IMG/VR virus record: IMGVR_UViG_3300035701_000040
Span: 1-54,272 of that record
Length of the DNA stretch: 54,272 nt
From: a virus
Reading direction: 5' to 3' (one strand)
Below the pieces are notes generated by a model. The model saw only the letters and a list, made by a program, of their open reading frames with translations, searched no databases and was not told where the DNA came from. A program made the position numbers and the translations under genes. The stretch's first letter is position 1, and every line of letters begins with the position of its first letter. Positions 1,262 to 50,626 of the stretch are shown here, piece by piece.

Positions 1262-3208
1262 ATGCTCACCAACGCCAGCGAACACTGCCTCTCCTGTCCT
1301 CAACGCGAGGTCGGTCAGAGCCGCATCTTGCCAGACGGACTCGTGAGCAGCGGGGTTGTGCTAGTCGGCGACTCACCTTACAAGGACGAGATTCGCTTAG
1401 GCAGGAACTTCAGTGGAGCGGCTGGCTACCTACTTGAGCGCCTGATTCGAGCTGTGAGCCGGGAGCGCAGTGAGTTCGGCGTAGCTAATACCATGTGGTG
1501 CTGCCCGCCGAGCTTAGGGTGGACAGACAAGTTTGCTGCTGCCCCAGCCCTAAGCAGTTGCAGAGCACACCTTGACGACTATCTCGCCTCCGTCCGCCCG
1601 CGCTGCATCGTGCCTATGGGTAATGTGGCCCTGCGCCGCATCTGCGACATTACAGGCATCGAGGCTCATCATGGCTACGTGCATGAGACTCCCTATGGGC
1701 TGGCGGTGCCGACCTTCCACCCCGCCTACTTGATTCGCGGCACAAGTGAAGTTGAGGGCCAGAAGTCTCGCAACCTGCGCTACTTCCCCGTGGTGGTGTT
1801 CGCGTTGCAGCGGGCGCTGGAGGTTGCGAGCGGGCGGTTCCAGAAACAGCCCGTCGAATACCTACTCGACCCAAGGCTGGAGGATGCCAAGGCTTATGTC
1901 GAACGCTGCCGTGAGCGCCAACTCGCTGACACCAGCGGAATCTACAGCTTTAGCTGTAGTAATGTAGTATCAAGTGAACACAGCTCGGGAGGTGCGCACG
2001 TTGCACCGACCCTCAAGACGGGCGAAGGAGCAGCCAGGGGTGACGGCGCTCATAGTGAGGGGGGGAACTCTGACGTAAGCATCCCCCCCTTTGTGGCTAG
2101 CCCTGGGGAGAGGCACCTGCTGGTGCCGACGGTCGCTGGGTTGTCGATGAGGATAGACCCGACAATGCCGACGGTCGGCAAGATTATAGGCATAAGCTCT
2201 CGGAGCAGCCAGAAGGCTGCGGCCCTGAGCGCAACAGCTTGTGGGCCAGATGCCGCAACCCGTGAGGGCGCGGGGGCTTCTACGTTTCTCAGCCTTTCCC
2301 CATCTGGCCCCAACCCCTCGGGCGGCGCGGCCCTCCAAGCGCCAGCCCTTGAGAGCGGCGGTGCGGGCGAGGGTAATCTCTGCCAAGGGCTACCTCCTGC
2401 CCGCATCCCGCTTCTATTCCTCGACCTTGAAACGCCGGAATCCTCAGCCTTCGAGGGCCAAGAAGAGGAGCCTCCGCAGTTCGCAGGCCGCAGGCTGAAG
2501 CTAGCTGGCCCCATTATCCGCTGTTCGTTCTCGCTATGGCCGGGGACGGCAGTGAGTTTTCCGTGGCAAGAGCCATTCATTAGTTGGGCGAAAGAGGTGA
2601 TTCAACGTGCTGATACGATTGCAGCCTGGAACGGCTATGACGCTGACTTTCCGAAATTGGGCGCAGAAGGAGTCTTGGGTGCAGGCATCAGAGGACGTTT
2701 ATCTACCGCCGGAGTACAACCTGTGCTGCTTGACCCGATGTGGGCCTGGCATTTCCTGCAAAGTGACCTACCCAAAGCCCTCGGCTTCGTCGCCCCGTTC
2801 TTCTACGACGGCCCGGCGTGGAAGCACCAAAGCGCGTCCGACCCTGCGTACTATAACGCAGTTGACTCAGACGCGGGGCTTAGAGCGCTTATCGGAACTA
2901 AGCAAGCGCTAGAGCGCCAAGGCCGTTGGGCGCGCTTCATGCGCCACTGCACCCAGACTCAGCCTATCTTTGAGCGCATGGGGTTCATTCAAGTTGACCG
3001 CGAGCAGCAGTCGGCGTTCCAAGCTCGACTGAAGCTGGAGTATGATGTTGCTCACGCTACACTGCAAACCAAGGCACCAGAGAGCATCAAGCCTGTGAAG
3101 GTCTGGAAGCGCCCGCCGAAGGATATGGCAGGGGTGCGAGCCGTCAAGGTGCCGACTGGGGAGCACCAAGGGCTGCTGGAACTGGAGGTGCCGGATGAGA
3201 ATACTTGA
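1262..3208 (+). CDS. polA: Split DNA polymerase A, N-terminal half: uracil-DNA glycosylase-like plus 3'-5' exonuclease
   Basis: 648 aa in three parts. Residues 1-200 resemble family-4 uracil-DNA glycosylase: C9-x2-C12, GDSPYKDEI at 36-44, cysteines near 80 and 100 that could complete a 4Fe-4S site, and HPAYL at 153-157. Residues about 225-380 are a low-complexity Ser/Gly/Ala/Pro linker with no domain signal. Residues 380-550 are a proofreading exonuclease: FLDLET (Exo I, D388/E390), AAWNGYDADF (Exo II) and YYNAVD (Exo III, D535). The end (ERMGFIQVDRE, about 571 onward) is the start of a polymerase thumb. The rest of the enzyme is encoded at 3646-4830, after an interposed methyltransferase gene that overlaps this one by 14 bases. 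Roles are inferred: replication with proofreading, and possibly uracil scanning. Confidence 0.85.
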   Translation: MLTNASEHCLSCPQREVGQSRILPDGLVSSGVVLVGDSPYKDEIRLGRNFSGAAGYLLERLIRAVSRERSEFGVANTMWCCPPSLGWTDKFAAAPALSSCRAHLDDYLASVRPRCIVPMGNVALRRICDITGIEAHHGYVHETPYGLAVPTFHPAYLIRGTSEVEGQKSRNLRYFPVVVFALQRALEVASGRFQKQPVEYLLDPRLEDAKAYVERCRERQLADTSGIYSFSCSNVVSSEHSSGGAHVAPTLKTGEGAARGDGAHSEGGNSDVSIPPFVASPGERHLLVPTVAGLSMRIDPTMPTVGKIIGISSRSSQKAAALSATACGPDAATREGAGASTFLSLSPSGPNPSGGAALQAPALESGGAGEGNLCQGLPPARIPLLFLDLETPESSAFEGQEEEPPQFAGRRLKLAGPIIRCSFSLWPGTAVSFPWQEPFISWAKEVIQRADTIAAWNGYDADFPKLGAEGVLGAGIRGRLSTAGVQPVLLDPMWAWHFLQSDLPKALGFVAPFFYDGPAWKHQSASDPAYYNAVDSDAGLRALIGTKQALERQGRWARFMRHCTQTQPIFERMGFIQVDREQQSAFQARLKLEYDVAHATLQTKAPESIKPVKVWKRPPKDMAGVRAVKVPTGEHQGLLELEVPDENT

Positions 3209-3656
3209 TGTTTCCGCTGGCAAGAGGGCTGTCTGGTTCAACAAGCATCGTCCGATGGCTACCTACCTCGACATTCGTGCAGAGGTTGAGCCAGACATTG
3301 TGGCAGACAGCCGTAACATGCCACAATTTGTGGACTCGACCTATGACCTAGCTGTGTTTGACCCACCCCACGTTAACTTTAGTGCTAGCGCGGAGCTGTC
3401 ACGGACTTATGGGCACCATACTACAGCGGAGATTCGTGACATCATCTGCCCCACTGGTAAGGAGCTTAGTCGTGTTTTGCGCCCTGACGGGCTGCTAGCG
3501 CTAAAGTGGAATGACCACGACCAGAAGCTGAGCAGGATACTTGATTTGCTGCCCGACTTTGAGCCTCTATTCGGCCACAAGGTAGCTCAGCGCAATCTTA
3601 GAGTAAGCCAAACTTATTGGGTCATGCTCCGCAATCGGAAGTTCGATGCAAACTGA
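3195..3656 (+). CDS. Class I SAM-dependent methyltransferase-like protein
   Basis: 153 aa. It shows motif I (MRILDVSAGKR), an Asp-rich second strand (TYLDIRAEVEPDIVADSRN), motif IV (DLAVFDPPH) and LSRVLRPDGLLALKWN. This matches a phage family of short methyltransferases with DPPH, where N6-adenine enzymes usually have DPPY. It appears full length. Both ends overlap the two halves of the DNA polymerase gene (14 and 11 bases), so the three are probably translated as one coupled unit. The substrate is unknown; phage DNA is one possibility. Confidence 0.75.
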   Translation: MRILDVSAGKRAVWFNKHRPMATYLDIRAEVEPDIVADSRNMPQFVDSTYDLAVFDPPHVNFSASAELSRTYGHHTTAEIRDIICPTGKELSRVLRPDGLLALKWNDHDQKLSRILDLLPDFEPLFGHKVAQRNLRVSQTYWVMLRNRKFDAN

Positions 3657-4830
3657 ACCCGTCTACATCACGCATTGGGAGAAGCTACTCGACTTCAACC
3701 CTCACTCTTGGCAGCAAGTCGGTGCGCTCATCAAGCACTGCGGCCTCGCCATGCCCCGCAAGCGTGGAGAGGACCGTGCAACCACTGAGGCCAAATACCT
3801 GCGCCGGTTCTCCAAGAAGCATGAGGTGTTCAAGTGGGTGCTCGAATGCCGTGAGCGCAAGAAGATGTTGAGCACCTATATGTGGCAGTTGGATGCCGAA
3901 GGGAAGGTGCATACAACCTATGGCTACCATCCGAGTACATGGCGCAAATCGAGCCGCAACGCCAACCTCCAAAATATTCCAGAGCGAAGTGACCTTGCAG
4001 GGAGCTTCCGGCGAATGCTCGTGGCAAGTCAAGGTCGAGTTCTCATCGAAGCCGACTCCAGTGCAATTGAGGCTGTGCTTGTCGGATATGGCGCGGGCTC
4101 TGAGCGATACATTCGCCTCGCCAAAGCGGGGATTCATGGATGGCTAGCCTCCTACTGGCTCGGTTGCCCCATCCCCCTCGACCTACCCGATGGAGAGCTG
4201 GCGCGGCGCTGCAAGGAGATGAAGAAGCTCAACCCGCCCGTCTACGAAGCCTGCAAGCGCGGTGGGATTCACGGCCCTAACTACCTGCTCACCTCACATG
4301 GCACCTATGACGAGTACGCTGAGCTGTTCCCCAAAGGGCTCAAGCAGGTCAAGGAGCTGCATGAGCTGTACTTCTCCCTGCCTCCCGGCCAAGACGTGAA
4401 GCGCTGGCAGCAAGCGACAATGGAACGTGCTCATGCTCAGCACTACCTCGACAACCACTTTGGCTATCGCCACTACTTCTACGACGTGTTCACTTGGGAC
4501 AGGAAGCGCGAGGGCTGGGGATTGGGCACCGACGCCAAGCGAGCTGTGGCCTTTGTGCCGCAGTCGGATGCGAGCGCCATTCAGACGGAAATCCTGCTCA
4601 AGCTCGCTGATACTGCTGTAGCTCCTTGGATGAGGTTGATTGTACATGACTCCCTCATCTTAGAGGCGCCAGAGGAGCAGGTGGACGTGGCTGTGGCACT
4701 CACTCAGCAGGTGTTCACAAGCTCGTGGCCGGAGCTGGGTGGGCTCAGCATCGGCTGCGAAGTGAGCATGGGCCGCAACCTAGCCCCCTTCGACGCGGCC
4801 ACGAACCCAGATGGAATGAGGAGCATATGA
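3646..4830 (+). CDS. polA: Split DNA polymerase A, C-terminal half: polymerase domain
   Basis: 394 aa. It begins with the thumb-region signature FNPHSWQQVGALIKHCGL, then RERKKMLSTYM and SRNANLQNIPER. Next come motif A (LIEADSSAIEAVL, with the metal-binding Asp kept), a motif B-like O helix (YEACKRGGIHGPNYLLT) and motif C (LIVHDSLILEAP). The usual HDE of motif C is HDS here: the catalytic Asp is kept and the following Glu is replaced. Joined to the 1262-3208 product it rebuilds a full family-A polymerase with little obviously missing. The ATG overlaps the methyltransferase gene by 11 bases. Confidence 0.87.
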   Translation: MQTEPVYITHWEKLLDFNPHSWQQVGALIKHCGLAMPRKRGEDRATTEAKYLRRFSKKHEVFKWVLECRERKKMLSTYMWQLDAEGKVHTTYGYHPSTWRKSSRNANLQNIPERSDLAGSFRRMLVASQGRVLIEADSSAIEAVLVGYGAGSERYIRLAKAGIHGWLASYWLGCPIPLDLPDGELARRCKEMKKLNPPVYEACKRGGIHGPNYLLTSHGTYDEYAELFPKGLKQVKELHELYFSLPPGQDVKRWQQATMERAHAQHYLDNHFGYRHYFYDVFTWDRKREGWGLGTDAKRAVAFVPQSDASAIQTEILLKLADTAVAPWMRLIVHDSLILEAPEEQVDVAVALTQQVFTSSWPELGGLSIGCEVSMGRNLAPFDAATNPDGMRSI

Positions 4831-6413: not shown

Positions 6414-6714
6414 GTTTAGTTTCCTCCTCCTCAGATTCCTCTTCCTCTTTCTCGTGTGAGAGCAGCGGGAACTCCTCGCCGTCTGCCGTCCAGAACTTGC
6501 ACACCCAGTCCGCTTTGATGTCCTTGTCGCCTTCTAGCCTCACAATCTCACAGGTTGATGCAGGCCGCACAAGGTTCTCGAAGAAGTGAATGCACCTCCG
6601 GCAACGCTCCGGGCCACTGGCTTCTTCGTAGTCCACTTCCTCCGGGCCGAACTTGGTTGGTCGGTCTGCGAGCAGGTCTTGGTAGTCAGCAAATGATGCG
6701 GTGTCTTCAGCCAT
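6397..6714 (-). CDS. HiPIP-like four-cysteine protein
   Basis: 105 aa. The core has the spacing C-x2-C-HFF, then STCEIVRLEGD and DWVCKFW. This four-Cys layout, with an aromatic after the last Cys, is that of high-potential iron-sulfur-like proteins seen in many phages. The C-terminus is strongly acidic (a run of Glu). Its role in the virion or infected cell is unknown. It overlaps the next gene by 17 bases. Confidence 0.6.
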   Translation of the reverse strand: MAEDTASFADYQDLLADRPTKFGPEEVDYEEASGPERCRRCIHFFENLVRPASTCEIVRLEGDKDIKADWVCKFWTADGEEFPLLSHEKEEEESEEEETKHARLD

Positions 6715-6716
6715 AG

Positions 6717-7010
6717 TTACTCGTTGACCGTGATTGAGAACCGGCCTTGTGTCTCCTTACACACGACATCGAATTGGTAGTCGTTAGCGCGTAGCGGCGC
6801 GCCGGAGATAGTACCGTCCGACTTGATTCCGAGCCCGCCTGGGAGCATATACTTAACGTCTCTTGGGGCTGGGGGCTTGTTGGAGACGCGGCAGCCAGTC
6901 AAGTTGTCCCCAACTTTAGCTGAATAAACTCTGCCGACGGCTCCATCGGGCAGCGGGATGACTGCCTTCGGGCTGTGTGCTAGTGCAATCGCTAGAATCA
7001 GTGTGGTCAT
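6717..7010 (-). CDS. Short exported Ig-like protein
   Basis: 97 aa. A short hydrophobic start (MTTLILAIALAHSPKA) could be a signal peptide. The rest matches part of a putative immunoglobulin (He_PIG) repeat: GRVYSAKVG, PPAPRDVKYMLPGGLGIKSD, GTISGAPLRANDYQF. It is the last of six adjacent genes whose products carry an N-terminal hydrophobic export or anchor segment. Confidence 0.6.
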   Translation of the reverse strand: MTTLILAIALAHSPKAVIPLPDGAVGRVYSAKVGDNLTGCRVSNKPPAPRDVKYMLPGGLGIKSDGTISGAPLRANDYQFDVVCKETQGRFSITVNE

Positions 7011-7011
7011 A

Positions 7012-8496
7012 CTATGGCCCTACCTTTACTGTGCTTTCCATCTTGTAATAGCCGAAGTCAAGGGTCTTCGCGGCGGCGTTGAGAGCGGTAATGGAGAAGT
7101 ACCAGTTCAATGCATAGCCATCTGTGAAGGTTGCTGCCTTAGTTGCTACAGTTGCCCCGTCTATCCTCCAAGTGACTTGTGCATCGGCGGCGCTGTAGCT
7201 AGTCACGAACTTATGCCAGTTTGTGTCTGGGGCTACTCCTGTGTCTGCTAGCTGCAAGCTCCCATTATTAACTTGTAGAGCTGCCATCCAGTGTGTGTCC
7301 CCTGCTCCGCCAGTTCCACTGGAGTATCTCCACATTGCTATGTCTTGTGTGGAACCGATGGTCGGGTCGTCCTCCGTTTGAAATGAGACAGCTAGAACGT
7401 TAGTGCAACCAAGCCAGACACGCTCCTGCGTGGTCTGGTTAACTCTCACATACATCGTGCATGTCCATGTTGGTGCAGTGTCACCGACATACTCCTCCAG
7501 TAGTTGCTTTATCTCAGTGACGCTTGCGGCTGAGCCGTCCGTACCATATCTAACGTAGCAGTGGGAAGCCCCGGAAAGTGGTAGAGTTGCAAACACTTGA
7601 GTTGAGTAGCTGTCAAGTGGTGTGTCATCTGCTCCAAAGCCTTGAAACAACCAATTCTCGCAGAACGGTATGAACGTGTCTGTCTTATCAGGAGTCGCTG
7701 CTGCTACCCCGCCTCCACAAGTCGCGCAGCCATTGATGGTGTAGGTCACTCGATTGTTCGTAGGGTCGTCAGCAGCACTGACAGTGATGTTGTCCGGCCC
7801 CGCGATGATGTTGACTCCCAGCCTACCTACTGAGTTCACTGGTGTCGCTGAGTTCTGGTAGAAGTTGAAGTTCTGCCACGTTGGGAGCGTCGCCGCAGCG
7901 TTCATGGCAGGCAACTGGCTGGCTGCACCCTTGGCAAAGCGTTCCCAAGTCTGCGCTAGGCTGCCACGAATCAGGTCGCCAACTTCAGGCGGTGTGTAGG
8001 GGATGGTGTCAAGGTGAGTTGCTGATAGCAGGTTGTGAGACGTTGCTGCTATGCAAGGTGCCGCGTTGAGCTGCACTTGAAGTTGCGCTGTGATGTTCTT
8101 AGTCGGCCCGCTGGTAATGAACGTGATGTTGACCCAAGGTGAGCCGCTTGCGCCGATGGCCGTAGCTTGCTTAGTGCCAATGCTGAAAAACCACGAGGTT
8201 GAGGTCACGCTACCCGTAGAAATCTGCGCGTTGTCAGCGAGCACTATGCTCAAGTCGCCGTGAGCATCGGTGAGCTGTCCTACAACAACCCTCTGTGGCA
8301 CAATAGTTGTTGTCCCTGTGAAGGTCGGCTGAGTGCTAGCGTCAGCGGGCACAACCAAGCTGGCGTTATAGGGCACGTTGGCAAGCGGCTGACCACAAGC
8401 ATCGTTCAGCGCCGTAGCTGTGACCGTCGTGTACTGAGCTTGAGCACAAGCTGCTGCAAGTAGGATGAATACAATGCTGAGTAGTGCTCTCTTCAT
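7012..8496 (-). CDS. Exported tail-fibre-like protein with lectin-like C-terminus
   Basis: 494 aa from the ATG at 8496, which has GAGGTGAGC upstream; an ATG at 8529 is less suitable. Residues 1-20 form a clear Sec signal peptide (MKRALLSIVFILLAAACAQA, then Q). Residues about 21-160 resemble the N-terminal domain of the fibre at 23715-25310 (YTTVTATALND, PTFTG, then a DN-rich strand). The C-terminal 200 residues share a jelly-roll/LamG-like pattern (DDP, DTNWHKF, WRIDGATV) with two neighbours. Receptor or surface binding is inferred. Confidence 0.7.
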   Translation of the reverse strand: MKRALLSIVFILLAAACAQAQYTTVTATALNDACGQPLANVPYNASLVVPADASTQPTFTGTTTIVPQRVVVGQLTDAHGDLSIVLADNAQISTGSVTSTSWFFSIGTKQATAIGASGSPWVNITFITSGPTKNITAQLQVQLNAAPCIAATSHNLLSATHLDTIPYTPPEVGDLIRGSLAQTWERFAKGAASQLPAMNAAATLPTWQNFNFYQNSATPVNSVGRLGVNIIAGPDNITVSAADDPTNNRVTYTINGCATCGGGVAAATPDKTDTFIPFCENWLFQGFGADDTPLDSYSTQVFATLPLSGASHCYVRYGTDGSAASVTEIKQLLEEYVGDTAPTWTCTMYVRVNQTTQERVWLGCTNVLAVSFQTEDDPTIGSTQDIAMWRYSSGTGGAGDTHWMAALQVNNGSLQLADTGVAPDTNWHKFVTSYSAADAQVTWRIDGATVATKAATFTDGYALNWYFSITALNAAAKTLDFGYYKMESTVKVGP

Positions 8497-41242: not shown

Positions 41243-41260
41243 GTGCTCACTGGTGCTCAC
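41243..41260. repeat. Two 10-bp direct repeats GTGCTCACTx
   Basis: GTGCTCACTG GTGCTCACTA, in a gap just before the 83-aa gene. One helical turn per unit; the same unit recurs four times at 43761-43800. Confidence 0.55.
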
Positions 41261-41592: not shown

Positions 41593-41877
41593 ATGGCAAC
41601 CAAAAAGAAGGCTGCCAAGAAGCGCGAGCCGGGTCAGGAAGTATGGGAACCGGCTGGAGCTGTCTCGACCGTCCGCGTGGTCATCAACGGTGAGCAAGCG
41701 GGTGAGGCGGGACAGCATGAGACTATCGGTGACGTGGCGAAGCGGTTCGCTCAGGCCCACGGCTTGCGGCGATTCTCTGTTGTCACTGATGGTCAGAAGC
41801 GCACAACGGCGGCTGGCGATACCTTGCTTACTAGAGTCCGCACTCTAGAGCTGGTAGCCAAAGACGCGCAGGGGTAG
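41593..41877 (+). CDS. Ubiquitin-like (beta-grasp) protein ending in Gly
   Basis: 94 aa. A Lys/Arg-rich N-terminal tail (MATKKKAAKKREPG) precedes a ubiquitin-like pattern: strands VSTVRVVING, helix TIGDVAKRFAQAHGL, strand FSVVTDGQKR, and a final strand TLELVAKDAQG. The last residue is Gly, as needed for activation by an E1. GGAGGTGCC precedes the ATG. It is followed by E2-like, E1 and JAMM genes, which strongly supports the call. Targets unknown. A sulfur-carrier role is the main alternative. Confidence 0.7.
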   Translation: MATKKKAAKKREPGQEVWEPAGAVSTVRVVINGEQAGEAGQHETIGDVAKRFAQAHGLRRFSVVTDGQKRTTAAGDTLLTRVRTLELVAKDAQG

Positions 41878-42002
41878 CGCCCTGTGCTCACTGCGGCTAG
41901 CCTCAGTGGGCCGAGCGAGTGCCAATCGCGGCATGGTTCGGCTCACTTTGGGTAGGCACAGGAGACGGCTTACCGATTCTGCTCAGAGAGGAGGTGAATG
42001 CT

Positions 42003-43121
42003 ATGCAAAGAGCTAGAGTTAATTTGAGGCGGGATGCTGGGGGAGAGCTGGTGCTCACTATCACTGGAGCACTAGAGCCCTCCACAAGCGCTGTGCTGGC
42101 GAAGCTGCCAAAGACGGCGTTTAGGGGAATGGATAGATGGAGGCGCAGTAGGCTGAGCAGGCAGCCAATGCGGGAAGTGGTGTCCGAAGCTATCAGCTAC
42201 GGCACCTCCATCGAAACCGTGTCCAATGCCATCGCTGCTGCTATTCTGGAAACCCAGATAGCCAACGGCGAAGGCTTCACGTCTGAGGCTCCACTAGGGT
42301 TGGAAGGCCAGGACTTGCTGGTAGCGGGCTCGCCTGCGCTGCTAGCGGTCGGCACGGGGCTATTCCAGCTCACACCCATCGGGGTGATAGACGGTGCCAA
42401 AGGACTCAAGACGCTCCGGGAGAAGGCGCGGAGGCAAGTCGCGGCTGAGGCGGCTGCTCTCAAGGCCAATGCTGAGCAGGAAGCTGCTCGCATCGTCCAA
42501 CGGGCGGCTGAAATCGAGCACCGGGCGAGGGAATCAGCGCAAGAGTTGGTTCGCTCACCACTGGGCCGGGTGCCTACGGACATCATGGCGCATTACCCGC
42601 TACGCAGTAACCCGCTGTCGGTGGGGGTACACCTAGACGTGGTAGTGACAGAGTTCGTGAAGACTTTAGAGGGGCAAGTAAAACACTGGGCTGCTAGTGA
42701 GGCGCTGAGTGCAACAACTCTGCTCTGGGTGCCATTCGACCCAGCAACGGGCACGCTGAATGTCAGGAACTCTAGGGTTGACGCTGGGGCATACCAGCTT
42801 CCGCACGCCTCGCACGGGGGCACTTGTGTTGACTTGGCACGGGAGCCGAGGCCGTTTACGAGCTGCGCCAGTGTGGAGTGGCTCCAGCAGCAGTTGCAGG
42901 GTGCGTTCCGGGTAGTCAACCTGTCGTCGCTGCTGCTCTGGCCGAGGCATGGCTGGCATCCGGTTATCAAGAGCGTGTGCCCACCGGATGTGCTGAAGGC
43001 AGCGGACGAGAGGGTTCCTTGGGGCCAAGTTACGACCCGCCCGACTTCCGTTGAGCTAGTTGGCGCGGAGGCGGAGGGTGACGAGGAGTGGCAGGTCGCC
43101 CGAGTAGAAGGGGAGAGGTGA
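42003..43121 (+). CDS. Candidate E2-like conjugating protein
   Basis: 373 aa from the ATG after GAGGAGGTG. Residues 1-135 have no recognised domain. 136-186 is a coiled coil (EKARRQVAAEAAALKANAEQ). The C-terminal domain has VLWVPFDPATGTLNVR-type strands, then LPHASHGGTCVDL (267-279). The His-x4-Gly-x-Cys layout resembles the active-site region of prokaryotic E2-like proteins, with C275 as the candidate catalytic Cys. It lies between Ubl and E1 genes. The assignment is an inference from motif and context. Confidence 0.5.
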   Translation: MQRARVNLRRDAGGELVLTITGALEPSTSAVLAKLPKTAFRGMDRWRRSRLSRQPMREVVSEAISYGTSIETVSNAIAAAILETQIANGEGFTSEAPLGLEGQDLLVAGSPALLAVGTGLFQLTPIGVIDGAKGLKTLREKARRQVAAEAAALKANAEQEAARIVQRAAEIEHRARESAQELVRSPLGRVPTDIMAHYPLRSNPLSVGVHLDVVVTEFVKTLEGQVKHWAASEALSATTLLWVPFDPATGTLNVRNSRVDAGAYQLPHASHGGTCVDLAREPRPFTSCASVEWLQQQLQGAFRVVNLSSLLLWPRHGWHPVIKSVCPPDVLKAADERVPWGQVTTRPTSVELVGAEAEGDEEWQVARVEGER

Positions 43122-43124
43122 ACA

Positions 43125-43757
43125 ATGTCCTTTGAGCGGCAAGAAACGCTTGGCATCAAGCAGGAGCAGTCCGTCGCGGTCATCGGCTGTGGCGGGGTAG
43201 GAAGCTGGGTTGCCCTCTACCTCGCAATGGCTGGCGTCGAGCGGATTGACTTGTTCGATGGGGATACAGTTGACGGAACGAACCTCAACCGGCTGCCCGT
43301 GCCCAGGGCCTCTATAGGGCAGCTAAAGACAGATGCGTTGGCCGAAGTCCTCCAGTATCTACGGCCAGAGCAATCAGAGAGCCTGTTCTTGCACGGGAAG
43401 TTCGTTCCTAGGCTGGCTGAGGCTATGGGCATAGGGTGGGATTGGTTGGTTGTCACGACCGACACACTCAGTTCGCGGAAAGAAGCGTACAAGTACAGTC
43501 AGAAACATAGCATCAGCTACATAGAAGCTGCGGCGAACGGGCTGGCTGGCAGCGTAGCAGCGAGTCCGGCTGAGTGGGATTTGGAGGAAGGCGACCCGGC
43601 TGGCTATCGCACGGTGCCGGTGTTCGTCGGGCCGTGTGCGGCAGCGGCAGCGATGGCGAGCTACTATGTACTGCGCAACACTCCGATTGCCGAGGCGCAC
43701 CGAGTTGACTGGTACGACCTTAACGGGTTGAAGCTCACGGAAGCAAGCGATGAGTAG
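43125..43757 (+). CDS. E1-like ThiF-family adenylyltransferase
   Basis: 210 aa. ATP site VAVIGCGGVGSW (18-28), IDLFDGDTVDGTNLNRL (acidic strand end, then the N-x-x-R of the family), IGQLKTDAL (K68) and VVTTDTLSSRKEAY (D113). A single late Cys (VFVGPC, C171) is a candidate thioester residue. There is no CxxC zinc pair. Shorter than MoeB/ThiF (about 250 aa), as in minimal E1s of Ubl operons. It would adenylate the Gly end of the neighbouring Ubl and pass it on. Confidence 0.85.
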   Translation: MSFERQETLGIKQEQSVAVIGCGGVGSWVALYLAMAGVERIDLFDGDTVDGTNLNRLPVPRASIGQLKTDALAEVLQYLRPEQSESLFLHGKFVPRLAEAMGIGWDWLVVTTDTLSSRKEAYKYSQKHSISYIEAAANGLAGSVAASPAEWDLEEGDPAGYRTVPVFVGPCAAAAAMASYYVLRNTPIAEAHRVDWYDLNGLKLTEASDE

Positions 43758-43760
43758 CAG

Positions 43761-43800
43761 GTGAGCACAGGTGTTCACCAGTGTTCACTTGTGCTCAACT
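43761..43800. repeat. Four tandem 10-bp repeats GTGnTCACnn
   Basis: GTGAGCACAG, GTGTTCACCA, GTGTTCACTT, GTGCTCAACT in perfect 10-bp register between the E1 and JAMM genes. It may be an operator facing one side of the helix. Related to 41243-41260. Confidence 0.6.
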
Positions 43801-43816
43801 CTAATGGAGGTGCAGT

Positions 43817-44656
43817 ATGGGGAAGCGTGAACGCAGGTTCCGCAGCTGGAGTGATGTGAGGCGGGAGTTCCTGAGAGGCTTCAAAGAAGAGGAGCGCTCA
43901 GGCTCTAGGCCGGACCTCATTCAGCGTCTAGGCCTTGACACGCTTGCCAAGCCTACCGAACCAAAGGCTGAGGAGACGTGGGAATGTGCAGTCGGTGATG
44001 TGCGTGGTTGCCCGATTGTGCAGGCTCCAAAGATTCTCGTGCCTTGGGCGCTCTATCGCACTTGGGTTGAGCTGGCATTCCAGGTTGATACGGAATGGAT
44101 GGCTTACCTCACGGGCGAAGCAACAGAGCGTGGGTTTGAGGTGCGGAAGACGTACTTTCCTGCTCAGGTTGCGCGGCCAGCGCATGTGGAAGCGGTAGGT
44201 GAGCTTACCGCTGTCCGACCGGGCACCATCGGGAAGGTACACTCGCATGCTACGATGGCAGCATTCCATTCTGATGAGGACGAAGCGCATCAGAACTGGC
44301 CTGTGGAAATCGTGGTCAACTCCAAGGGGGAGACTGACTCGACTGTACGGGTCAAGCTGGAATGTGGCAGGTGGTCGAGAGTGAAATCGCGCATCATGCT
44401 CACTGGCACGGCGCAGTCGGAAGGCGCGCTGACTGAGCTGAGAGCGGCAATTGAGCAGGGAGAGGAGTTCGACAAGAAGCGGGCTCCGGCTCCGATGCTC
44501 TATGGCGAGGGCATACGGGCTGAGGTTGTGTCTCCCAGCGTGGGAGCTATCAGCGGTAGCGGGGAGCCGACTGAGGTTGACAAGGCTTATCAGGACTGGA
44601 TTGACCATCTGAATGGCGCTCGCAGCCGAGCACGAGAGTTCAACTTCGGGGTGTGA
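43817..44656 (+). CDS. JAMM/MPN metallopeptidase (deubiquitinase-like)
   Basis: 279 aa. The zinc motif is complete: E93 (DTEWMAYLTGEA), then GKVHSHATMAAFHSDED, giving H142-x-H144-x7-S152-x2-D155. The N-terminal 50 residues are basic and helical. The C-terminal 80 lack a known domain. GGAGGTGC precedes the ATG. Beside Ubl, E2-like and E1 genes, its likely job is to remove or recycle the Ubl from targets. The Ubl already ends in Gly, so it does not need trimming. Confidence 0.82.
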   Translation: MGKRERRFRSWSDVRREFLRGFKEEERSGSRPDLIQRLGLDTLAKPTEPKAEETWECAVGDVRGCPIVQAPKILVPWALYRTWVELAFQVDTEWMAYLTGEATERGFEVRKTYFPAQVARPAHVEAVGELTAVRPGTIGKVHSHATMAAFHSDEDEAHQNWPVEIVVNSKGETDSTVRVKLECGRWSRVKSRIMLTGTAQSEGALTELRAAIEQGEEFDKKRAPAPMLYGEGIRAEVVSPSVGAISGSGEPTEVDKAYQDWIDHLNGARSRAREFNFGV

Positions 44657-46745: not shown

Positions 46746-46770
46746 CCGTGCTCCCTTACGGGGGTAAAAC

Positions 46771-47019
46771 GTGAGACTGGGGGTGTATGTAGTTGAATCT
46801 GCTACGCATTATAGAGTCTCATGCCCTCTACGCACAGTGAGACTCCCCTTATTTTACAGTCTCACCGCCCCCACAGCGAGTGAGACTCTTATCTATCTGA
46901 TTCTTAGGGAGTTAGGCTACCAGTCTCACGGTTTCCCCCCTGTTATAGAGGGCGCTCAATGGAATCAGCAACTTATGGCGTTTAAGCTCTGCGCCTGCGC
47001 CGGTAGATTCCAGTCTCAC
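46771..47019. repeat. Iteron-like array of GTGAGACT / AGTCTCAC
   Basis: Seven copies (six perfect 8-mers, one 7-mer): plus sense at 46771, 46837, 46880; inverse at 46815, 46858, 46922, 47012. Most centres are 21-22 bp or twice that apart (two helical turns) and alternate in orientation. AT-richer stretches lie between. It ends inside the 3' end of the helicase gene. Replication origin or operator is likely. Confidence 0.7.
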
Positions 47020-48076: not shown

Positions 48077-48274
48077 ATGGCAAACCACAAGTTGCTGAAA
48101 CCAAACAAGTTCTGTCGGCTATGCGGGAAGCGGCTGCGCGGCCAGCGCCGGAAGTTCTGCTGCAATCGGCATGGGACGCTGGCGAGGGTGCGTAAGTGGC
48201 GTGGCCTCAAGAGGGTCGAGTCCGGCTACGCGAAGGTAATGGTCGGTCAGGAGCGTGTATGTCCAACGTCATAG
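48077..48274 (+). CDS. Zinc-finger basic protein (65 aa)
   Basis: FCRLCGKRLRGQRRKFCCNR, then HGTLARVRKWR gives a treble-clef-like site with a basic helix, as in small phage DNA-binding proteins. It overlaps the nuclease gene by 16 bases. Confidence 0.65.
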   Translation: MANHKLLKPNKFCRLCGKRLRGQRRKFCCNRHGTLARVRKWRGLKRVESGYAKVMVGQERVCPTS

Positions 48275-49488
48275 TAGTTGACCGCTCTCGAATCGAAGCT
48301 CACGAGCACTGCCGCCGCAGGCGCTATTGGCAGTACGAATGGCAAGGCCGTGGCTTGGAGTCCACGCGGCCCAGCGCGGCGTTGGAGATTGGGAAGGCTG
48401 TGCATACGGGGCTCGCGGGCCTGCTGGCCGACATCAGCATCGTCGATGAAGCCGTGGGCCTTGCTCTCCATGAATTCAGGCAGAATACCGCCATCTACAA
48501 CATCCAAGGGCAGCCCGAGGACACCGGGGAGGCAGCGGCGCTGGTCGAAGCCTTAGTCCGGGCTTGGGCGGCTGTCAGGCTCCCTGCATGGCTCGACGAG
48601 TACGACGTGCTCAATGTTGAGCGCGAGGAGTTGCTGCCGCTCGATGTGGGCATGGTTCTGCTAACGAGGGCTGACGCGCTGGTTCGGCGCAAGGGTGATG
48701 GCTCCCTGTTCCTCGTCAACTTCAAGACTGCCAAGCAGATTGACGTGGTGTGGCGAGAGCAGTGGCGGCTGGATATGCAGACGCTCTCCGAAGTGCTGCC
48801 GGTTGAGGCGAGGCTGTGTATGGAACACCCGTTTGTAGCAGCCGAGAAGCTCGCTGGTGTCATTATCGAGGGGCTAGTCAAAGGCGGGAAGTCGAAGGAC
48901 GGAAGCATCTCCTACCAGTCTCCCCTAACCTGGCCTTGGGCACAGCAGGCGATTCCGGGCGCTATCTACAAGGGCCGCTATGAGTGGGAGAGCATTGACC
49001 TCGACGGCAGCAGGCGGAACCGGAGGCTTGGCCGCGACTGGAAGCGAGTGCCCATATGGAAGGAGTCGGGCGGGGTCAAGGGCTGGATTGAGGAGCTGCT
49101 GCGCACCGACCGGGCGCTAGTCGAGGAGCAGTTCGTGACGCTACCTCCCATCCTGCGTAGCGAGTGGGAAATTGAAGAGTGGAAACGGGCGACGGTGGTG
49201 AGTGAGCAGAGCATTCGAGGCTGCACCATTCAGCTTGAGACTGACCCTGAGCTGCTGCCTGTGCTGTTCCAGAGGCACACGAGTCATGGCAACTGCCTGC
49301 GCCCGAGCAAGTGTGCTTGCTACGAGCTGTGCTGGGGCACAGCGGCTGCTGACCCAGTGGGCAGCGGACTCTATCGACTGCGAACCCCGAATCATGAGTA
49401 TGAACGTAATCTGCTGAGTGAGCAGACGCTAACTGAAGACGTGCTCAAGGCTGCTCACGAGACTTATGATGGTGAGCACAATCATTGA
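48259..49488 (+). CDS. PD-(D/E)XK nuclease, Cas4/RecB-like, with Cys cluster
   Basis: 409 aa from an ATG after AGGAG. HEHCRRRRYWQYEW and GKAVHTGL at the N-terminus, VEREELLPLD, then RADAL (D139) and FLVNFKTAK (154-156), where Asn replaces the usual acidic residue of the ExK motif. C-terminal NCLRPSKCACYELCWG with the N-terminal Cys could hold a 4Fe-4S cluster. It would resect DNA ends for recombination with the next genes. Confidence 0.75.
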   Translation: MSNVIVVDRSRIEAHEHCRRRRYWQYEWQGRGLESTRPSAALEIGKAVHTGLAGLLADISIVDEAVGLALHEFRQNTAIYNIQGQPEDTGEAAALVEALVRAWAAVRLPAWLDEYDVLNVEREELLPLDVGMVLLTRADALVRRKGDGSLFLVNFKTAKQIDVVWREQWRLDMQTLSEVLPVEARLCMEHPFVAAEKLAGVIIEGLVKGGKSKDGSISYQSPLTWPWAQQAIPGAIYKGRYEWESIDLDGSRRNRRLGRDWKRVPIWKESGGVKGWIEELLRTDRALVEEQFVTLPPILRSEWEIEEWKRATVVSEQSIRGCTIQLETDPELLPVLFQRHTSHGNCLRPSKCACYELCWGTAAADPVGSGLYRLRTPNHEYERNLLSEQTLTEDVLKAAHETYDGEHNH

Positions 49489-49500
49489 AAGGAAACTGTT

Positions 49501-49725
49501 ATGCAAATCTGTCCCAAGTGCCGTCGGATAGCCAGTAGTGGAGCAGCGTTCTGCTCACTAGACGGCGCGAAGATGGTCAACGTGGAGTGTCCGAATTGCA
49601 GGTACGTAGCCGTCTCACCCCACGAGAAGTTCTGTGAGCGCTGTGGACGGGAAATCGAGGGGCTGTTTGAAGCAGCGCTTCGAGCCCGTGACGAGGAGGT
49701 AGCAAGTGCAACCAATGGCACCTAA
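49501..49725 (+). CDS. Double zinc-ribbon protein (74 aa)
   Basis: MQICPKCRRIASSGAAFCSLDG, then VECPNCRYVAVSPHEKFCER gives two zinc ribbons. Overlaps the next gene by 20 bases. It may recruit partners or DNA in the recombination module. Confidence 0.65.
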   Translation: MQICPKCRRIASSGAAFCSLDGAKMVNVECPNCRYVAVSPHEKFCERCGREIEGLFEAALRARDEEVASATNGT

Positions 49726-50626
49726 AGCTGACCTGGTTTATGCGGCAACCGGGCTGCGGAAGACCAGTAACATCGGCCTCGCTGCTCTCTACTTTTGGAA
49801 CAAGCTGCACAAGCGCACCCGCTTAGTGAGCGCCGATGGTGGAGGGTGGGAGCCGGTTCAATCGCTCGTTGATGAGGGCATCATTGTCCCGTGGCAGGTT
49901 GCCCTGCACCGCTTCCCGCTTACCGCCATGCAGCAAGCCTGCCAGGGTCACTGGCCGGTGGATGTGAACGACCCAGCTACCCAGCTCAAGCCCTTGACTA
50001 AGGAGGAGTGGGAAGGCATCGCGCTCGTTGCCTACGAGGGGCTCACCAGCTTTGGCGACCTGATGCTGCAATGGTTTCGCCGTACCGGGCAGAAGCTCTC
50101 ACAGGATGCGAGCTATAGCTACGACGATGGCGGAGGCATTAGCTGGTTCGGCTCCAACATGAGCCAGTATGGAGAAGTCCAGAACCGCATCTATGACTAC
50201 GTGATGAGCACCAACCGGCTGCCTTGTGACAAGGTGTTGTGGACAGCACTCGAAGGCAAGGGTGAGGAGGAAGGCTCGAAGGCTCCTATCTATGGGCCTG
50301 CTATTGCTGGCAAGAAAGCTGTGGGCAAAGCTGGGCAGTGGTTTGGGAACATGCTGCACATTGAGGCTGCTGTGATTGAGGGTGCTGTTGACAAGGACAC
50401 TAAGCAAATCCCCCTTGTCGTGAAGCCCACGATGTACCTTCGTCCTCATGCTGACCCAGTGAGTAAGATTCCGTTTCACGCGAAGACTCGCGCACCTTTT
50501 CAGTTTGCGGCAGAACTGCCGGAGAAGTTAGAGCCACCGGATATAGCCGCTTTGTACAAGCTGCTGGATGCTTTGAACGAGAAAGCACGAGCTTCTCTCA
50601 AGCAGACTGCCGCAACTAAACCATAA
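49706..50626 (+). CDS. Sak4/RecA-like NTPase with degenerate P-loop
   Basis: 306 aa from a GTG after GAGGAGG. DLVYAATGLRKTSNIGLAAL is a P-loop in which Arg replaces the Gly before Lys-Thr. Later LVSADGGGWEPVQSLVDEGI and EGIALVAYEGLTSFGDLM fit a RecA-like core. It lies between a nuclease and an SSB-like gene, so a single-strand annealing or recombinase role is likely. Confidence 0.55.
   Translation: MQPMAPKADLVYAATGLRKTSNIGLAALYFWNKLHKRTRLVSADGGGWEPVQSLVDEGIIVPWQVALHRFPLTAMQQACQGHWPVDVNDPATQLKPLTKEEWEGIALVAYEGLTSFGDLMLQWFRRTGQKLSQDASYSYDDGGGISWFGSNMSQYGEVQNRIYDYVMSTNRLPCDKVLWTALEGKGEEEGSKAPIYGPAIAGKKAVGKAGQWFGNMLHIEAAVIEGAVDKDTKQIPLVVKPTMYLRPHADPVSKIPFHAKTRAPFQFAAELPEKLEPPDIAALYKLLDALNEKARASLKQTAATKP

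Follow-up and report, generated by a model that had tools for sequence, protein, structure and literature searches.

A probable phage-encoded system for ubiquitin-like conjugation, linked in related phages to replication genes

Bacterial ubiquitin-like conjugation has been studied chiefly as a defense against phages. Here we describe a phage that itself carries what appears to be a complete set of genes for such conjugation. The stretch of DNA that we analyzed in full (hereafter the window) is the 54,272-base virus record IMGVR_UViG_3300035701_000040, in which four consecutive open reading frames (ORFs) on the plus strand, between positions 41593 and 44656, encode a ubiquitin-like protein (Ubl), an E2-like protein, an E1 and a JAB protease, each preceded by a Shine-Dalgarno-like GGAGG or GAGAGG. 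An earlier note on this DNA had described four adjacent same-strand genes forming a conjugation operon owned by a phage. The ORFs lie where it placed them, and the presence of a terminase, a portal and a major capsid protein, all on the minus strand, marks the record as a phage and the gene set as its own. We consider it likely that the four genes constitute a phage-owned, reversible Ubl-conjugation system, a judgment that concerns the system and not its substrates. Sequence and predicted structure, together with conserved active sites and synteny, give good support to the existence of such an operon.

The Ubl (41593–41877, plus strand) is a 94-residue protein that ends in ...VAKDAQG at its own stop codon, with Gly94 at 41872–41874 and no precursor tail. 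AlphaFold2 (AF2) models it as a beta-grasp of topology beta-beta-alpha-beta-beta-alpha-beta, with a predicted local distance difference test score (pLDDT) of 86 overall and 92–95 over residues 31–90. The best Foldseek matches of this model in the PDB are ubiquitin, SUMO and ISG15 (probability 1.0), a bacterial Ubl–deubiquitinase complex ranks sixth, and the family profile matches SUMO in the PDB (E = 0.002). Glycine occupies the C-terminal position in 33 of 36 aligned Ubls, 21 of which terminate exactly there and 12 of which carry 1–6 extra residues; the crAss-like Ubls have a long extension beyond KSG or RSG.

The E2-like ORF opens at a GTG at 41919, but alignment of relatives and a strong Shine-Dalgarno sequence (GAGAGGAGGTGAATGCTATG) favor the ATG at 42003, which would likely give a product of 372 residues (42003–43121, plus strand). 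An N-terminal part and a coiled coil precede a UBC-like core containing L266-P-H268 and Cys275, and the predicted active-site stretch H268...C275 (42804–42827, plus strand) lies within LPHASHGGTC. Cys275 and S309 are invariant among the aligned sequences (32/32 each) and H268 is present in 31 of 32. In the AF2 model (pLDDT 76), a long coiled coil is followed by a helix, four strands, the LPH...C stretch and further helices; the alpha-beta4-alpha core, His and catalytic Cys that characterize UBC E2s are all found in this predicted fold and its conservation. The best 16 PDB matches of the model in Foldseek are all UBC enzymes, none individually significant. One family member, L123, has the sequence HPNVNDDGMVCLG with an HPNV...VCLG motif; nearly all of its listed phmmer matches in the PDB are E2s (best E = 0.0019), and it matches Pfam UQ_con below the cut-off (E = 0.0038). 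HHalign connects the E2s of the window clade with those of the L008 type (93%, E = 3e-7) and places H268 and C275 in register. A profile from the E2 alignment found mainly coiled-coil proteins in the PDB, a result that is neutral for the E2 assignment.

A short acidic-Trp motif recurs at Ubl N-termini (approximately EVWE in the window) and E2 C-termini (approximately DEEWQ), for example also in L008, L009, L059, L060 and L097. It is present in 18 of 43 Ubl N-termini and 21 of 35 E2 C-termini, compared with 16 and 26 of 376 in other ORFs, for a pattern that was picked post hoc. The motif may be a docking peptide shared by the Ubl and the E2.

The E1 (43125–43757, plus strand; 210 residues) belongs to Pfam ThiF (PF00899, 4e-25) and retains the nucleotide-site residues G21-C-G-G-V-G26, D45/D47, N53-L-N-R56, K68 and D113; G21, G23, D45, D47, N53, K68 and D113 are kept in 98–100% of 109 relatives. 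Its relatives in the PDB include TcdA, MoeB, ThiF, UBA1, UBA5, Cap2 and BubCD. It is a lone minimal adenylation domain, with neither a catalytic-Cys domain nor a rhodanese domain, and C22 of the GCGG loop is the only conserved Cys in the alignment of the window clade; roughly half of the relatives have a Cys close to position 162 that the window E1 lacks. The JAB/JAMM metalloprotease (43817–44656, plus strand; 279 residues), a predicted Ubl isopeptidase, matches Pfam Prok-JAB (PF14464, 1.5e-5) and has an intact E/HxH/SxxD site (E93, H142-S-H144, S152 and D155), each residue being kept in 98–99% of 108 relatives. In one related locus, L014, a tandem pair of JAB genes lies 3′ of the E1 (6604–8437).

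These results bear out the four individual assignments of the earlier note, namely a beta-grasp Ubl ending in Gly, a candidate E2-like protein, a ThiF/E1 with intact ATP and N-x-x-R motifs, and a JAMM peptidase with an intact E/HxH/SxxD site. The note had also named two outcomes that would count against it. One was a 94-residue protein that did not fold as a beta-grasp, and the AF2 model is a beta-grasp. The other was that homologues of these genes make only a sulfur carrier or cofactor; the homologues found are accompanied by an E2-like protein whose Cys is invariant, and we found no sulfurtransferase or cofactor gene among the window ORFs scanned.

To place the window among its relatives, we used loci L008–L181, collected from viral contigs, scanned twice with E1 alignments and once with a JAB alignment, and from genome contigs, scanned once with an E1 alignment; the ORFs of all loci were labeled by profiles grown from four seeds. 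Scans of viral contigs with single proteins returned no relatives, and alignment queries were needed; searches of phage and plasmid collections by tblastn with the JAB and the E2 also returned no true relatives, the one weak plasmid JAB match (Rhizobium, E = 0.8) being rejected because of its overlap with a common response-regulator gene on the opposite strand. Profiles built without the window recovered its E1 at once (E = 1e-35) and its JAB at 5.5e-13 in the first pass and then at 1e-35; the Ubl followed on iteration (2e-8). The survey of related phages that the earlier note had proposed showed the order Ubl-E2-E1-JAB on one strand in 32 distinct loci, window included. A further 11 distinct loci have Ubl-E1-JAB, with a window-type E2 in between in all four that were inspected (L061, L062, L096 and L104); JAB stands ahead of E1 in 53 distinct loci, and E1 occurs together with JAB in 109. 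The ratio of nonsynonymous to synonymous substitution (dN/dS) in relatives has a median of 0.10 for the Ubl, 0.15 for the E1 and 0.14 for the JAB family, and is 0.24 for the E2 in a single pair. With this gene order repeated in 32 distinct loci and a dN/dS of about 0.10–0.24, the operon is more than a chance arrangement.

Clear relatives of the window's terminase and capsid protein are confined to the L059, L060 and L061 records (terminase 43–47%, capsid 62–65%), with a remote match to the terminase in the record of L010. The L062 and L104 records bear the operon together with a terminase unrelated to that of the window, and the operon is therefore common to phages with different packaging genes. 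Among the other loci, L153 (1331–5809), on a contig binned as a Thermoplasmata archaeon, has a ParB-like gene (identified by eye) followed by a Ubl, a larger ORF, an E1 and a JAB.

What lies beside the operon in these relatives suggests where it may act. A clamp, clamp-loader, primase, helicase, Sak4 or exonuclease gene occurs in the fetched flank of 70 of 101 viral operon loci, and in 24 loci a T4-type sliding clamp and both clamp-loader subunits flank the operon. Among 18 records of the L008 branch, 16 to 189 kb long, 17 have exactly one clamp match, located ~1.3–3 kb upstream of the E1 on the same strand. In other phage groups the neighbors are a DnaB-like helicase/primase and Sak4, and in crAss-like phages a primase, an exonuclease and a uracil-DNA glycosylase (UDG). 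The cultured Bacteroides phage crAss001 (L189) has a block of gp80 primase, gp79 Ubl, gp78 E2-like, gp77 JAB, gp76 ThiF, gp75 and gp74 UDG, and related blocks are found in DAC15 (L191) and Flavobacterium phage FpV4 (L190). The Ubl-E2-JAB-E1 genes of these cultured phages are annotated as hypothetical, ThiF or metalloprotease.

Because the operons of relatives adjoin sliding clamp, clamp loader, primase, helicase and recombinase genes, we favor a role in replication or recombination. In the mechanism that we propose, adenylation of the Ubl at its C-terminal Gly by the E1 would be followed by transfer of the Ubl to Cys275 of the E2 and then to amino groups on target proteins, and the JAB would remove it again as an isopeptidase. 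Since the Ubl is made tailless and the JAB is nonetheless intact, the JAB probably serves for deconjugation and not solely for maturation. Given an E1 with neither a Cys domain nor a clade-conserved Cys outside the GCGG loop, the Ubl may pass straight from its adenylate to the E2 Cys. The most likely targets would be proteins of replication and recombination, from phage or host, in a manner possibly akin to the modification of eukaryotic PCNA, which is both ubiquitinated and SUMOylated (PMC7403780). That replisome proteins are the substrates is a tentative hypothesis drawn from gene linkage, to which we give somewhat less than an even chance. The broader proposal, that many tailed phages, crAss-like ones included, modify their replisome (for example, the sliding clamp) through their own reversible Ubl pathway in which a minimal E1 passes the Ubl directly to an E2, as a counterpart of PCNA ubiquitination and SUMOylation, is more doubtful still.

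Several observations weigh against these interpretations. The C-terminal Gly is absent in 3 of the 36 Ubls (L062, L079 and L118). The identity of the window E2 rests on a predicted model with Foldseek E values of at least 0.27, together with motif and family conservation; the E2 profile built without the window failed to recover the window E2 when its closer clade was left out; and the E2s of crAss-like and marine phages were assigned by position and the H...C motif, a profile comparison having given no link to the window clade. Direct alignments of window and crAss proteins are too distant to be used beyond the motifs. The loci were collected by similarity, so their counts are not independent samples. 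With respect to replication, no sliding clamp was identified in the window, where the nearest gene of a replication or recombination type is AAA/helicase-like, on the opposite strand and ~2.3 kb downstream. An exonuclease-like gene (48196–49488, plus strand; phrog_1218) follows at ~3.5 kb and a gene for a Sak4-like single-stranded DNA annealing protein (49706–50626, plus strand; phrog_124) at ~5 kb. Replication linkage may also be explained by shared early expression. Elsewhere in the window, a 648-aa protein (1262–3205) has a UDG-like N-terminal part, the UDG Pfam match being among the scanned ORFs and its assignment to this ORF made by eye, and the adjoining gene (3646–4827) matches DNA polymerase.

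How does this operon compare with known systems? Comparison with Bil and CBASS, systems that the earlier note had named for a search, showed differences in E1/E2 hallmarks or in partner genes. Bil combines a two-domain Ubl (BilA), an E2 with a CEHH motif around the catalytic Cys, and an E1 that has a Cys domain in addition to one inactive and one active adenylation domain (PMC11354881). As in Bil, Ubl, E2, JAB and E1 are encoded together, and the marine and crAss order Ubl-E2-JAB-E1 resembles BilABCD. In contrast, the phage Ubl is a single 94-aa beta-grasp, the phage E1 is a 210-aa protein with one ThiF domain, and the window E2 lacks CEHH, its C275 being followed by VDLARE and no His pair; the motif is missing from the clade alignment as well. 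Bacteria encode Bil against phages, whereas here the operon is encoded by a phage. We therefore rejected identity with Bil, in view of the absence of the two-domain Ubl, the inactive adenylation and Cys domains of the E1, and the CEHH motif. Like the ThiF-family E1s of type II CBASS and Bub, the phage E1 has E2 and JAB partners, and its profile matches Cap2 and BubCD; however, the phage E1 and E2 are separate proteins (CBASS has an E1–E2 fusion) and the operon encodes its own Ubl, Bub having been compared in outline. No CD-NTase or nucleotidyltransferase match was found among the operon neighbors and window ORFs scanned, and CBASS identity was rejected on this ground and because E1 and E2 are unfused.

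PRTRC, which we read as corresponding to the Iyer-Burroughs-Aravind operon type 6d (PMC1779556), shares separate genes for a small Ubl with a C-terminal Gly, an E2-like protein, a JAB and an E1. The phage JAB profile matches PRTRC_A (2.9e-7) and the phage E1 profile matches PRTRC ThiF. Membership was first considered from weak PRTRC matches and then rejected. No ParB match was found among the window ORFs scanned, and the PRTRC control loci carry a ParB-like gene. The E2 His arrangement differs, with an upstream His (LPH, HYH or HPN) in 31 of 32 phage E2s and only a downstream His in PRTRC_B (FFNVWSQGKVCVG...THPN). Finally, scores against the NCBIfam PRTRC models fall below their cut-offs (PRTRC_ThiF 17 bits, cut-off 144.75; PRTRC_A 12.6 bits, cut-off 101.8), with no match to PRTRC_B or PRTRC_C. 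The phage Ubl and E2 profiles likewise find no PRTRC_C or PRTRC_B, and the small ORFs near the operon have no convincing family match; the novel alpha-helical fifth protein of PRTRC/6d, if fast-evolving, could escape such a search. The eukaryotic ubiquitin and SUMO cascades share the logic of Ubl, E1, E2 (HPN...C in phage L123) and JAMM protease, and differ in that the phage E1 is minimal, no E3 was recognized, and the E2 core is fused to a coiled coil and other domains. We found no description of phage Ubl-E2-E1-JAB operons in the literature, although most subscription papers and preprints lay outside the search and an earlier description is possible.

These comparisons bear on what else the four genes might do. 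Host systems of the same enzyme classes (Bil and type II CBASS) counter phages (PMC10097602; PMC11354881), and an intact JAB could strip conjugates made by Bil or by Cap2/Cap3 of type II CBASS, the Ubl could serve as a decoy, or the E1 could disturb such a system. We consider counter-defense of this kind unlikely, however: a decoy or lone protease needs neither E1 nor E2, whereas all four parts are retained with intact active sites and low dN/dS; relatives link the operon to replication genes, and no known anti-defense genes were recognized near it. That the phage tags proteins of rival phages in a defense or superinfection-exclusion system that it carries, as Bil tags phage tail proteins, is an explanation with a parts list equal to that of Bil (PMC11354881) and a BilABCD-like order in marine and crAss loci to its credit. 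It is somewhat less probable, since the Bil hallmarks are lacking in Ubl, E1 and E2 and the operons of relatives lie in core replication blocks, not in an evident accessory-gene region.

A pathway in which the Ubl and E1 make a thiocarboxylate for thiolation of a nucleobase, tRNA or cofactor, with the JAB as maturation protease, would also differ from the conjugation that we propose. JAB-E1-ThiS sets are known from sulfur pathways (PMC1779556, rows 4a–4e), and the size of the phage E1 is nearest to ThiF/MoeB, but Pfam scans of the window ORFs found no rhodanese, desulfurase, SirA/TusA, thiouridylase, ThiS/MoaD-pathway or cofactor gene. Together with an E2-like partner bearing an invariant Cys and a JAB kept even though the window Ubl requires no maturation, this makes a sulfur-carrier role very unlikely. 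Least probable of all is a part in tail or virion assembly. Phage tail modules such as lambda TAPI/TAPK combine a JAB protease and a Ubl domain (PMC1779556), and the operon likewise has a phage-encoded Ubl and JAB; however, the lambda-type modules belong to tail assembly and have no E1 or E2, whereas this operon is apart from the structural genes, on the opposite strand, and among replication genes in relatives. Of the reading in the earlier note, the phage-owned conjugation operon is well supported; the suggested roles, modification of host defense or phage structural proteins and blocking of host Ubl systems, found no specific support, and the linkage in relatives points instead to replication or recombination.

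The window also contains repeats that may bear on the expression of the operon. Two GTGNNCAC palindromes 10 bp apart lie upstream of it (41243–41260, plus strand), as a possible operator, and four palindromes of the GTGNNCAC type, likewise spaced by 10 bp, three of them exact and one with a mismatch, lie in the E1–JAB gap (43761–43798, plus strand). Exact double sites number 3 in the window, versus 0.01 expected, and such arrays were not found in relatives. The arrays are possibly the binding site of a phage regulator, with that in the E1–JAB gap a possible operator or second promoter for the JAB; sigma-70 promoter and terminator scans gave nothing above chance. Direct and inverted repeats with AGTCTCAC/GTGAGACT cores at 46760–46940, beside the strand switch, form a possible origin or regulatory element.

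In summary, complete Ubl-E2-E1-JAB operons are owned here by phages, show purifying selection in relatives and lie inside the replication blocks of different lineages, which suggests that phages put ubiquitin-like tagging to uses of their own. If the system is active, protein tagging would be part of ordinary phage biology, and a minimal E1–E2 relay without an E1 Cys domain would become open to studies of how the ubiquitin cascade arose. Cultured phages such as crAss001 and DAC15 already allow the question to be tested.

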